Below the pieces are notes generated by a model, which saw only the letters and a program-made list of their open reading frames with translations, had not been told where the DNA came from and made no database searches. Positions 3,569-7,643 of a stretch of DNA of 7,643 bases are shown piece after piece; position 1 is the first letter of the stretch; every line of letters starts with the position of its first letter. This DNA is from a bacterium. Its GTDB lineage: Bacteria > Blakebacterota > Blakebacteria > Blakebacterales > Blakebacteraceae. The position numbers and the translations under genes are program-made. Where the stretch lies: assembly GCA_025774205.1 (NCBI GenBank), contig JALGWK010000070.1, forward strand, positions 1 through 7,643, in the 5' to 3' direction.

Positions 3569-4666
3569 CTAGCGGACTATAGGATCAATATAAAGATCAA
3601 ATGATCCTGATATTACCGTATCATGCATAATGGAACCATCAGGAGACATACTGAGAACCATCATGGATTCTATGCCATCAGGTACCGTTTCCAGGCCGCG
3701 AGGACCGAGAATACTCAGTGATGTGGCCCAGATATCAGCCTCGAGAGCAGTCGGTGCGATCACCGACACCGAGAGGGCTGCGGTAGCGGGATGACCTGTC
3801 CGCGGATCGATGATATGGCTGTATCGTTCACCATCGATAACGAAGAATCGAGAGTAATCACCACTGGTGCAGACAGCCCCGGTGAGCAGGGCGAGGTGTT
3901 CGAGGGCACCGGAACCTGAAGGATCCTGGACGACGACGCGCCAGGCGATGCCGTCAGGAGGCTGACCGAAGACCCGCAGGTCACCTCCGACATCCACAAG
4001 TCCTCCCACTGCTCCAGCACTCTGCATGGCCTCAACGGCCCGGTCGATGGCGTATCCTTTAGCGATGCCACCCAGGTCGATCTCGACCCCGCTGCTCAGC
4101 TTGAAGATCCTTTCCCTGGTCAGGTCGATCTGGTCCCAGGAAGATTGCTGACGGGCCCGATTCAGGGCCGCGTCGCCGGGCAGAACACCAGCAGAGGCGG
4201 CCTCCCGCCAGAGCAGGATCAGGGGACGGATGGTGACATCGAAGGTGCCGCCGGTCGTCTGGTGGGCCTCGAGTGCGTCATGCAGGATGGCGTAACTGGT
4301 GGCGGATAGGGGGATCTCGTCGCCGACTGCGGCACGGTTGAACCTGGTGACGCGGGAACCCTCCAGCCAGCTGCTCACTTCCAGTTCTATAGACCGGAGA
4401 ACGCTCTCAGCTACTGAAAGCGCTTCCGTAGCACGCGCTTCCTCAACGGGGCGGGTGACCACTGCCAGCCGGCAGGAAGTACCCATGATCCCCTGGGGCT
4501 CGGAGGTGAGGGTGATGAAACGCACTGCCTCCCGTTCGGTACGGGTCTGCCGGAGCGCCACTACTACTATGATGGCGGTGCACACCAGCAGCATGAGCCT
4601 GATGACCTGGTCGCGTCTCATCGGGTATCTGGTAAAAACCGAAAAGCAGGCAACAAACCGGGCCAC
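3569..4666 (-). CDS. apbE: ApbE-family FAD:protein FMN transferase
   Basis: ApbE moves FMN from FAD to a threonine in S/TGAT-type motifs of RnfG/RnfD and NqrB/NqrC, outside the cytoplasmic membrane. Family motifs appear in order: GIMGT (59-63), TGGTFDVTIRPL (138-149), DLGGIAKGYAID (197-208), DVGGDLRVFG (225-234), CTSGDYSRFF (266-275), YSHIIDPRTGHP (282-293) and a Mg2+-site segment EADIWATSLSILG with Asp311 and Thr315. A hydrophobic helix at about 21-38 follows basic residues and should export or anchor the protein. It contains Cys29, but VC at this point is not a good lipobox. The GTG at 4666 is preferred because AGGAGG lies upstream; the ATG at 4621 (Met16) has no such site and is the alternative. 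It faces the rnf operon, and RnfG is its evident substrate. Its last codons run into the AT-rich tract. Length (365 aa) is normal. Confidence 0.95.
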   Translation of the reverse strand: MARFVACFSVFTRYPMRRDQVIRLMLLVCTAIIVVVALRQTRTEREAVRFITLTSEPQGIMGTSCRLAVVTRPVEEARATEALSVAESVLRSIELEVSSWLEGSRVTRFNRAAVGDEIPLSATSYAILHDALEAHQTTGGTFDVTIRPLILLWREAASAGVLPGDAALNRARQQSSWDQIDLTRERIFKLSSGVEIDLGGIAKGYAIDRAVEAMQSAGAVGGLVDVGGDLRVFGQPPDGIAWRVVVQDPSGSGALEHLALLTGAVCTSGDYSRFFVIDGERYSHIIDPRTGHPATAALSVSVIAPTALEADIWATSLSILGPRGLETVPDGIESMMVLSMSPDGSIMHDTVISGSFDLYIDPIVR

Positions 4667-4686: not shown

Positions 4687-4768
4687 CACACTCTCTACAC
4701 TCTCTACACTTTCTCACTCTCTACACTCTCTACACTCTCACACTCTCTACACTCTCTCACTCTCTACA
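4687..4768. repeat. CTCTCTACA simple-sequence tract upstream of apbE
   Basis: Six exact copies of the 9-mer CTCTCTACA begin at 4691, 4700, 4717, 4726, 4743 and 4760. Spacings are 9, 17, 9, 17 and 17, with near-copies such as CTCTCTCA filling the gaps. The plus strand has no G from 4677 to 4772 (96 bases), so an apbE leader copied from here would have no C. The tract sits in the apbE leader or promoter region. Such short repeats can change length by slipped-strand mispairing. No protein is supported here; plus-strand reading frames through it are low-complexity Ser/Leu/Thr. Confidence 0.85.
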
Positions 4769-4783
4769 TTTAGCCTGTATCTC

Positions 4784-4848
4784 GTCAAATTCCTGTTCCA
4801 TTCAGTCAAGATACTGGTCCCATTCAGTGAGGATACATGTTCCGATCA
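4784..4848. repeat. Three degenerate ~22-bp direct repeats
   Basis: Units at 4784-4804, 4805-4826 and 4827-4848 share the pattern GTSARGATACNNGTYCC, then CATTCA or similar. The clearest pair is 4798-4818 against 4820-4840: both begin CCATTCAGT and share GATAC, with 17 of 21 positions equal and a 22-bp offset. Spacing near two helical turns would place copies on one face of the DNA, as for tandem protein-binding sites. They lie between the simple-sequence tract and the palindrome array, upstream of apbE on its strand. Confidence 0.6.
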
Positions 4849-4858
4849 TCGTTTTCCC

Positions 4859-4989
4859 TGTACGACAACTTGCGTACAGACTTCTGTGGAAAACGTGTAC
4901 GCGCAAACGCGTACATCCCCACCGGACGTGGATGTACGCTTCAGAGCGTACAGCCCCTACAGCAAATCCTGTACGCGAAACGTCGTACA
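4859..4989. repeat. Array of four 20-bp palindromes, TGTACG-N8-CGTACA, at exact 37-bp spacing
   Basis: Four copies occupy 4859-4878, 4896-4915, 4933-4952 and 4970-4989. Each has perfect 6-bp outer arms, TGTACG and CGTACA. Copies 2 and 3 extend the pairing to 8 bp with a 4-base centre (TGTACGCG-CAAA-CGCGTACA and TGTACGCT-TCAG-AGCGTACA). Between these two, arm position 8 changes together on both sides (G/C to T/A), so symmetry is kept while sequence drifts. The three spacers are all 17 bp and unrelated in sequence. The 37-bp period is about 3.5 turns of DNA. The pattern fits an operator array for a symmetric DNA-binding protein; four RNA hairpins are the main alternative. It lies 195 bp before the start of the gene at 5185 and 192 bp before apbE. 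Confidence 0.9.
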
Positions 4990-5000
4990 TCAGAAACTCA

Positions 5001-5028
5001 TTATTGCACCCCTTTTGACATTGATAAT
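5001..5028 (+). promoter_or_regulatory. Possible sigma-70-type promoter for the 5185 gene
   Basis: GATAAT (5023-5028) is one base from the -10 consensus, with TTATTG (5001-5006) as a weak -35 after a 16-base spacer. A perfect TTGACA also sits at 5015-5020, but no good -10 follows at the right distance (5038-5043 reads TCCTCA). Either reading would start transcription just after the palindrome array and give a leader of roughly 150 bases that includes the inverted repeat at 5076-5106. Support is sequence similarity only. Confidence 0.22.
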
Positions 5029-5075
5029 CGAATGGCGTCCTCAGCGTCCTCCCTTCGATCAGGGACTGGTGTCCC

Positions 5076-5106
5076 GGGTGTCGTCATTGATCTCATGACG
5101 ACACCC
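5076..5106. repeat. Perfect 12-bp inverted repeat in the leader of the 5185 gene
   Basis: GGGTGTCGTCAT (5076-5087) and ATGACGACACCC (5095-5106) are exact reverse complements around the 7-base loop TGATCTC. No T tract follows on either strand, so it is not a standard terminator. It could be an RNA hairpin in the leader or a protein-binding palindrome. The word TTGATCTCA, which spans the loop (5087-5095), recurs at 5143-5151. Confidence 0.75.
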
Positions 5107-5184: not shown

Positions 5185-5835
5185 ATGCACCTGCCGATGC
5201 AGATAGAAACCTGTCGCGATCCTGGCCAGGCATTCCTTGATATCCTCCGTTCAGAAGGAGATACCGATGTCTTTTTCTGTGGGAAATGCCTGCGACACAA
5301 CACCATCCGGTATCAGTATCTGGAATTTGAATCCTTCATCGGGGAATCAGGCGATCTTCTGACCGGAATATGCATTGATTGCGGCAAACTCGTCTCGGTA
5401 CCCTACCAGGCCTCAACGCTGCTGGCAGAGTCATGGATCGAGCGGAAGCTCACCTGTTGTGATATGCGATTGCCGCGGCCGATGGTCGATTTACTGCGTT
5501 GTATCAGTGAGCAATTCGAGGTGCCGAACGATCGGTTCCGCCAGGCAATGCTGAGGTATTACATGCAGGAACTCTGTGAAGACAACCACTTGATCGTACC
5601 GGTGATGCGTATGGCCCGTTCCCCGCTGGCCCGGCAGGCGGCCGACGCTCGTCTCACAGTACGACTCTCCCCGGAACAATACGGCGATTTTTCCTGGACC
5701 CTGCACAGGTATCGGATTGAGAATTGGTCGATGGTGATCCGGGGATTGATCCTGGTGGGGGCGCAGGATGCGAATTCCCGGCCGCCGAACAGGAGGCGGC
5801 AGGCACTTTCGGCTATCGCCGCCTCCCTCGGCTGA
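5185..5835 (+). CDS. Unrecognised protein with zinc-ribbon-like cysteines and two ribbon-helix-helix-like segments
   Basis: I do not recognise this 216-aa family. Two CxxC pairs, C32-GK-C35 and C63-ID-C66 (FFCGKC and GICIDCGK), look like a zinc ribbon. Residues about 90-131 read as a short strand (TCCDMRLP), a helix (RPMVDLLRCISEQF) and a second helix (NDRFRQAMLRYYMQEL). Residues about 155-195 repeat the plan: ARLTVRLS, then PEQYGDFSWTLHRYRI, then NWSMVIRGLILVG. This strand-helix-helix plan, and VIRGLI in the last helix, resembles RHH repressors of the Arc/CopG/NikR kind, here perhaps two in one chain. The C-terminus is basic (RPPNRRRQ). ATG 5185 has GGAAAGGGA upstream (5171-5179); an in-frame ATG at 5116 has no ribosome site. 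It follows a repeat-rich regulatory region and precedes uvrB by 48 bases with no terminator, so the two may share a transcript. A transcriptional regulator is inferred, not shown. Confidence 0.75.
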   Translation: MHLPMQIETCRDPGQAFLDILRSEGDTDVFFCGKCLRHNTIRYQYLEFESFIGESGDLLTGICIDCGKLVSVPYQASTLLAESWIERKLTCCDMRLPRPMVDLLRCISEQFEVPNDRFRQAMLRYYMQELCEDNHLIVPVMRMARSPLARQAADARLTVRLSPEQYGDFSWTLHRYRIENWSMVIRGLILVGAQDANSRPPNRRRQALSAIAASLG

Positions 5836-5883: not shown

Positions 5884-7643
5884 GTGAACAGAACGTTGGA
5901 TAATAAGAGTCAGGGTGATTCGAACGATCGGATCGATCTGCAGTCGGCACTCGGCTCGCCGTGGATGGAGCGGAGGGACCAGCCCTTCAACCTGGTGAGC
6001 AGCTATAAGCCTGCCGGTGACCAGGCCGGGGCCATCGAGGACCTGACCTCCGGACTCGAGCGGGGTGATCGCTATCAGACCCTGCTCGGAGTGACCGGAT
6101 CGGGAAAGACGTTCACGATGGCGAATGTGATCGCCCGGGTGAACCGTCCCACGCTCGTCATCAGCCACAACAAGACCCTGGCGGCCCAGCTTTACGGTGA
6201 GCTGAGGGGCTTTTTCCCCGACAACGCGGTCGAGTACTTCATCTCCTACTACGACTACTACCAGCCGGAGGCCTACCTGCCGGGGCGCGATCTCTATATC
6301 GAGAAGGAGACCAGCGTCAACGAACTGATCGAACGTCTCCGCCTCCGCACGACCAGCGCGCTGCTCGACCGCCGCGATGTCATCGTGGTGGCCTCGGTCT
6401 CCTGCATTTACGGCCTCGGGAATCCCGCTGACACCTACAAGCTGCTGGTGGGACTGGAGAAGGGGCAGACTCTCGATCGGCAGGACTTCCTTCGGGCCCT
6501 GCTCGACCTGCAGTACCACCGGAACGACATCGCCTTCGACCGGGGGACCTTCCGGGTTCGCGGCGACGTGGTGGAGATCCACCTCGCTTACGAGGAGATC
6601 GCCGTGAGGGTGGAGTTCTGGGGAGAGGAAATCGAGAACCTCTCCATTGTCAACCTGCTCACCGGTGAGATCCTCGAAGAGCGGGACCGGGTGATCATCT
6701 TCCCCTCCAGCCACTTCCTGACCAACCGGGATAAAGTGGATGAAATCCTGGCCGTCATCGAGCAGGACGCCGAACAGGAGGTGGAGATCCTCCAGGACGC
6801 CGGCAGGCTGGTCGAAGCGCAGCGCCTGAAAACCCGGACCAGGTACGACCTGGAGATGATGGCCGAGGTCGGCTGGTGCACGGGGATCGAGAACTACAGC
6901 CGGTATTTCGACGGCCGTGAGGTTGGCGACCGTCCCCATACCCTGATCGATTACTTCCCCGACGACTTCCTCACCATCATCGATGAATCGCACGTCACCG
7001 TCTCCCAGATCGGCGGGATGCACGCCGGCGACCGCTCGCGAAAGGAGAACCTGGTCGAATTCGGCTTCCGGCTCAGATCGGCGCTCGACAACCGCCCCCT
7101 CGAGTACGCCGAGTTCGAAGCGCTGCAGAACAATACTGTCTACGTGTCGGCCACGCCGGGTGACTTCGAGCTGGAGAAGTGCGACGGAGTGGTCGTGGAG
7201 CAGGTGGTGAGGCCCTCCGGGCTGCTCGATCCCGAAGTGGTCGTGCGGCCGGTGTCGGGACAGATCGATGACATGCTGGAGGAGATCAGGAGGCGGGTGG
7301 AGCAGGGGGAACGGACCCTGGTCACGACCCTGACCAAGAAGATGGCCGAGGATCTCACCGATTACCTGGTCAAGGTGGGGGTTCGGGCCCGCTACATGCA
7401 CTCGGAGATTGACGCCCTCGATCGGGTGGAGGTCTTGCGAGGTCTACGCATGGGTGATTACGACGTTCTGGTAGGGATCAACCTGCTCAGGGAGGGTCTC
7501 GACATGCCGGAGGTGAGCCTGGTCGTCATACTCGACGCCGACAAGGAGGGCTTCCTGCGGAGCCAGACAAGCCTGATCCAGACCATGGGGCGCGCGGCGC
7601 GCAACGCCAACGGGCTGATCATCATGTATGCTGACCGGGTGAC
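5884..7643 (+). CDS. uvrB: UvrB, excinuclease ABC subunit B (3' partial)
   Basis: UvrB is the damage-verifying helicase of nucleotide excision repair. It receives the lesion from UvrA and recruits UvrC. 586 codons are visible and the frame is open at the right edge; the family's usual 660-680 aa means the C-terminal UvrC-contacting UVR domain lies outside. Motifs, numbered from GTG 5884: Walker A GVTGSGKT with Lys75, the damage-probing hairpin [10 protein letters not shown] (from 122), [14 protein letters not shown], Walker B IIDESH (Asp367), [41 protein letters not shown] and motif [11 protein letters not shown] (from 566). The GTG follows AAGGGCGAG and an in-frame stop at 5863. ATG 5965 is the alternative: it puts the Walker lysine at residue 48, close to the family's usual position (Lys45 in E. 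coli), but lacks a clear ribosome site. The GTG would add 27 residues. It is probably co-transcribed with the preceding gene. Confidence 0.97.

Follow-up and report, generated by a model that had tools for sequence, protein, structure and literature searches.

In the F-plasmid parS (sopC), a 43-bp repeat bearing a 16-bp inverted repeat occurs twelve times in tandem (PMC6238139). The XRE-type antitoxin HigA2 of Vibrio cholerae has a footprinted operator of the form TGTACGC-N5-GCGTACA (PMC11006873). In the YefM-YoeB operator the palindromes have a TGTACA core and their spacing affects cooperative binding, and MqsA, of the MqsRA system, regulates further loci in trans (PMC4803016).

The array described here lies in a 7,643-nucleotide stretch of DNA (the window) and comprises four exact TGTACG-N8-CGTACA palindromes, to which no strand is assigned. 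Pattern matching places them at 4859..4878 (TGTACG-ACAACTTG-CGTACA), 4896..4915 (TGTACG-CGCAAACG-CGTACA), 4933..4952 (TGTACG-CTTCAGAG-CGTACA) and 4970..4989 (TGTACG-CGAAACGT-CGTACA). The start-to-start distances are 37, 37 and 37 bp, with spacers of 17 bp between neighbours, and the 37-bp period reported in the initial annotation is real. The 8-bp symmetry also reported for copies 2 and 3 is present in the window; however, because the counterpart of copy 3 in a paralogous array on contig C280 (TGTACGATTCATGGCGTACA) has lost it, this symmetry is not conserved.

The array ends 195 bp upstream of the start codon of the gene at 5185..5835. No clear promoter was found at the window array, in which the one weak promoter-like match is on the other strand. 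Between the array and the gene is a perfect 12-bp inverted repeat with a 7-bp loop and no T-run (5076..5106, no strand assigned). To the left, a 22-bp tandem pair (GTTCCATTCAGTCAAGATACTG / GTCCCATTCAGTGAGGATACAT) at 4795-4838 immediately adjoins the array, and upstream of apbE, at 4688-4768, a unit of about 9 bp (ACTCTCTAC) is repeated in tandem in degenerate form. The spacer between sites 1 and 2 (4879-4895) is TTTTCCACA in the window, and the same spacer in C280 (L006 5040-5056) is TTATCCACA, the DnaA-box consensus.

The genome to which the window belongs (G000, 3.09 Mb, 86% complete) contains exact TGTACG-N8-CGTACA at 10 sites in three loci, all of them intergenic, and a reversed control pattern has 0 matches across the same genome. 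Exact sites inside genes, part of what the initial annotation had named as evidence against its own view, are thus not seen. Four exact sites are those of the window contig (C222). The C280 locus has three, at 8282, 8319 and 8356, preceded by a degenerate one at 8245, all at 37-bp spacing. The C261 locus has three, at 684, 746 and 879, with spacings of 62 and 133 bp. Strict phasing, as originally proposed, is thus seen in two arrays but is missing from the third. Relaxing the pattern to TGTAC-N10-GTACA with one mismatch adds to the own-genome set the degenerate eleventh site on C280 and further matches at the control rate; one checked pair of these relaxed matches is inside a MiaB-like gene. 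When the relaxed pattern was scanned over wider genome contigs, other spacings dominated among the matches listed.

The array lies between two divergent genes. On the minus strand, 3569..4666 is apbE, encoding an FMN transferase (Pfam PF02424, E 2e-71). On the plus strand, 5185..5835 encodes a 216-aa protein (the 5185 product), the likely array-binding protein. The plus-strand gene at 5884..7643, which runs off the window, we take to be uvrB; its start codon was picked by reading the frame, and tblastx matches it to the orthologous locus of the related genome G001 at 86%. A gap of 48 bp separates this uvrB from the 5185 gene upstream of it, and the two genes are possibly co-transcribed. Ahead of the 5185 gene, the window has no toxin-like ORF.

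The N-terminus of the 5185 product has the arrangement CxxC...CxxC, which is invariant in an alignment with plasmid relatives and appears zinc-ribbon-like, as judged from the residues and by eye. This four-cysteine part has no Pfam match above cut-off. The C-terminal part resembles a ribbon-helix-helix by eye only, and scans of the protein or of its C-terminal part against Pfam, NCBIfam and PDB gave nothing supporting either fold. The protein has no match worth naming in Pfam, NCBIfam, PHROGs or PADLOC, no HTH match in Pfam, and 0 relatives in 60 related genomes. A single-sequence structure model was unusable (pLDDT 32).

Relatives were found on plasmids. A tblastn search with the 5185 product matched six Rhizobium plasmid records at 20-21% identity, with E values down to 6e-7, and a Rhizobium protein used as query led to Acetobacter relatives at 37-38% identity. 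In hhalign, the 5185 product matched an alignment of five plasmid relatives with a probability of 96.6% (E 5.5e-10, 189 columns). By these comparisons it is distantly related to the protein encoded second in a plasmid gene pair, after an ORF of 96-98 aa (for example, NZ_CP006988.1 and NZ_HF677572.1). The Rhizobium/Acetobacter pair is called TA-like from its layout alone, and its small first ORF has no family match in Pfam or NCBIfam, MqsR included. No relatives of the 5185 product or of the pair were found in viral contigs, and tblastn of the pair's two first-gene proteins, both from plasmids, against the window and other fetched loci gave no significant match.

The sequence upstream of the Rhizobium pair contains TACGAAGAMCTTCGTA, that is, TACG-N8-CGTA, and Acetobacter has TACGAGGATATTCGTA at the corresponding upstream position. 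Each of six plasmid loci (four Rhizobium, two Acetobacter) has a single TACG-N8-CGTA about 20-30 bp upstream of the first gene, and in most of the six the palindrome spans a promoter-like TTGATT-16/17-TATATT/A. The centres vary (AAGAMCTT, AGGATATT), and the core and spacing are constant. The consensus T-N-TACG-M-N6-K-CGTA-N-A fits 10/10 exact sites of the window's genome and 5/6 plasmid sites, the exception being L232. By comparison, when each 500-bp upstream stretch was shuffled 300 times, TACG-N8-CGTA arose in one shuffle, and its background is 0.057 per kb, as counted in contigs chosen for TGTAC palindromes. The idea of a palindrome arose from Rhizobium, where it is post hoc, and was afterwards checked on Acetobacter. 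Because the operons of the two genera probably share an ancestor, the plasmid evidence amounts to about one independent match, not six. The two-gene TA-like module with a single palindrome in a promoter-like region is represented by plasmid loci L233, L234, L235 and L236.

The array is probably an operator cluster bound by the adjacent 5185 product, a solitary antitoxin-like protein that would repress its own gene. The restriction of the ten exact sites to three intergenic loci, with no match to the control, supports the array as a predicted operator. Homology, and the TACG-N8-CGTA core in common with the plasmid promoter-like regions, point indirectly to the 5185 product as the predicted binder, the protein that the initial annotation had put forward for a binding test. 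Several observations count against this reading: the plasmid sites have TACG and N8 in common with the array but differ at position 2, where G is missing, and occur once rather than four times; a toxin-like ORF ahead of the 5185 gene and a clear promoter at the array are both lacking; and the C261 array is between two convergent 3' ends, so that it is not an ordinary promoter operator there.

Each operator half-site would be TGTACGM (M = A or C), and dimers of the 5185 product might occupy each 20-bp palindrome, possibly cooperatively. Because 37 bp is about 3.5 turns, neighbouring sites of the two regular arrays would face opposite sides of the helix. If it behaves as type II TA antitoxins do, the protein may repress its own gene and perhaps also the downstream uvrB, and it might act in trans at the two dispersed copies of the element, on C280 and C261. 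We infer the binding of the array, the oligomeric state, the repression and the trans regulation alike.

Within the genus and family, G001-G003 contain no exact site and no relative of the 5185 protein; this co-occurrence of gene and sites speaks for the 5185 product as the candidate binder, though it is drawn from few, incomplete genomes. An array missing upstream of the same gene in close relatives, which the initial annotation would have taken as contrary evidence, was not encountered, the sole same-genus relative having neither array nor gene. The apbE-uvrB gap of G001 is short and has only a degenerate TGTACAGGAACGTACA. It includes a stretch whose translation, with an in-frame stop, resembles the final residues encoded by the 5185 gene, and read by eye it looks like a C-terminal remnant left when G001 lost the gene. 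At the locus corresponding to C261, G001 has a shorter gap, of about 90 bp, and no array. Searches for the C280 locus in G001-G003 found nothing.

The window array is part of a larger duplicated element (4843..5071, plus strand) composed of a 16-bp left flank, the four sites and a conserved tail of about 80 bp. A second copy is at G000:C280:8163-8391 (minus strand), with 82% identity to the window over 229 bp. Judged from this alignment, the array and its tail are copied as a unit, and the 37-bp period is common to the two arrays by descent. In a three-way alignment, C261:684-898 is a diverged third copy, whose reverse complement aligns with the loss of one site and a long insertion. Its putative homology to the other two rests mainly on a single flank match: the right flank of C261 agrees with the fourth-site flank of the window and C280 at 14/22 positions, a score reached by 6 of 2000 shuffles. 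Composition places all three array contigs in one genus-level genome, and that of C280 groups with the rest of the genome. According to ORF lists, the window array lies between divergent genes, the C280 array in a codirectional context, by fpg and a serine hydrolase gene, and the C261 array between convergent genes (an FtsX-type permease gene on one side and 2-oxoacid oxidoreductase genes on the other). These differing contexts make it less likely that every copy is a plain promoter operator.

The arms of the palindromes are conserved beyond their surroundings. Between the window and C280, identity is 47/48 in arms, 23/32 in centres, 43/51 in spacers and 60/82 in the right flank, or about 78% outside the arms (Fisher p 5e-4). 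The initial annotation had described centres and spacers as unrelated, which is true within the window array; between these paralogous arrays, however, the spacers are conserved, and more so than the centres. Between the window and C261, the arms of sites 1, 2 and 4 are identical at 36/36 positions, and sequence outside the arms matches at 14/28, 20/48 and 36/76 (41-50%).

These copies raise the alternative that the array is a dispersed repeat, that is, MITE- or BIME-like mobile DNA with four palindromes and no dedicated binder encoded by the adjacent gene. This we regard as unlikely, yet it is the most credible of the competing views. Three paralogous copies in unrelated intergenic contexts, the 82% identity of two of them, the shorter, array-less gap at the C261 locus in G001, and a 12-bp inverted repeat (92%) flanking the three C261 sites are all consistent with it. 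However, there are only three copies; the two closer ones share, by eye, no terminal inverted repeats or target-site duplications; the G001 gap is no clean empty site; and no transposase gene was recognised on the contigs read. The arms are selectively conserved, and such a repeat would also leave unexplained why the plasmid relatives of the 5185 product have a matching operator. Mobility of the array and binding by a protein are compatible, and no reading accounts for the spread of the copies. One 26-bp phage match to the array DNA is at chance level, and there is no plasmid match; a phage or plasmid origin was rejected. A viral contig with two TGTACG palindromes has a 13-bp spacer and was judged unrelated.

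It is improbable that the array is a set of centromere-like or nucleoid-organising sites for a ParB-like or other architectural protein. Its regular palindromes resemble the F-plasmid parS, and one array is outside promoters, between convergent genes. However, no par genes were seen next to the arrays, which are few and low in copy, and canonical parS sites are present instead on contig C515, the likely location of the chromosomal ParB site. On C515 (L202), parS is found at 870, 917 and 964. Two of these sites are exact and the third has a single mismatch; they recur at a 47-bp period, their spacers are identical, and they adjoin gidB-like and yidC-like genes. The array sites themselves lack the TGTTTCACGTGAAACA sequence and were rejected as chromosomal parS.

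Equally doubtful is the idea that the palindromes are operators of a HigA2-like XRE-type antitoxin encoded elsewhere in the genome. The half-site is nearly identical to that of HigA2, and C continues it in 14/22 half-sites here. However, the arm-to-arm spacing is off by one base pair, the exact sites having N8 between CG and CG, and the contact motif Arg-x2-Glu-Asn-x4-Arg occurs in 0/13 HTH_3 matches of the 86% complete genome, some of which are weak or on the other strand. The fetched stretches around these HTH_3 matches contain no TGTAC palindrome. A LexA/SOS operator was also rejected, the 86% complete genome having no PF01726 match under a profile that matched 10/14 controls.

The initial annotation had offered protein binding and a run of RNA hairpins as alternatives. 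Position 7 is C in 14 and A in 8 of the 22 half-sites of 11 sites, which are not independent because the arrays are paralogous. The 7/14 pairs are AG (4), CT (4) and CG (3), mispaired in 8/11 sites. Because position 7 is A or C in both half-sites even where pairing breaks, a protein half-site is favoured over a stem, and selection on protein binding is further supported by arms that are kept while the rest drifts. That the array is transcribed and acts as hairpins or terminators is very improbable: every palindrome can form a 6-bp stem and six T directly follow C261 site 3, but pairing is not kept by paired changes, no site in the window or C280 arrays is terminator-like, and an Rfam search gave no match.

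If the operator reading is correct, an addiction-module regulator separated from its toxin can gain a multi-site array and further chromosomal sites. It would give the plasmid TA-like family a predicted operator code (T-N-TACG-M, N6, mirrored) and an otherwise unannotated protein a candidate ligand. A more novel version, which we hold to be quite unlikely, is that a solitary, domesticated regulator of the antitoxin family uses phased four-site arrays to control a small dispersed regulon, including the DNA-repair genes uvrB and fpg, in a bacterium whose 86% complete genome yielded no LexA; the inclusion of these two genes is suggested by adjacency only.

The initial annotation knew of no named element with this layout. 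For the four-site arrangement no match was found, but the site type does have a likely relative, the type II TA-like operator. Like the window array, the F-plasmid parS is made of tandem, regularly spaced inverted repeats; it differs in its 43-bp repeats and its ParB ligand. HigBA2 of Vibrio cholerae has a similar half-site, TGTACGC, but a spacer one base pair shorter, an XRE protein and a single operator. YefM-YoeB likewise has palindromes with a TGTACA core, which is continuous, however, and the two palindromes are 12 bp apart. MqsRA resembles the plasmid pair in its toxin-first order, and its antitoxin has an N-terminal four-cysteine zinc domain, of which the CxxC...CxxC of the 5185 family is reminiscent, but no counterpart of the C-terminal XRE-type HTH of that antitoxin is recognised in the 5185 product or its plasmid relatives. 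In the plasmid TA-like module, the second gene encodes a homologue of the 5185 product and the TACG-N8-CGTA core and its spacing are alike, whereas there is one site, a first gene of 96-98 aa, and T or A at half-site position 2, where the array has G.
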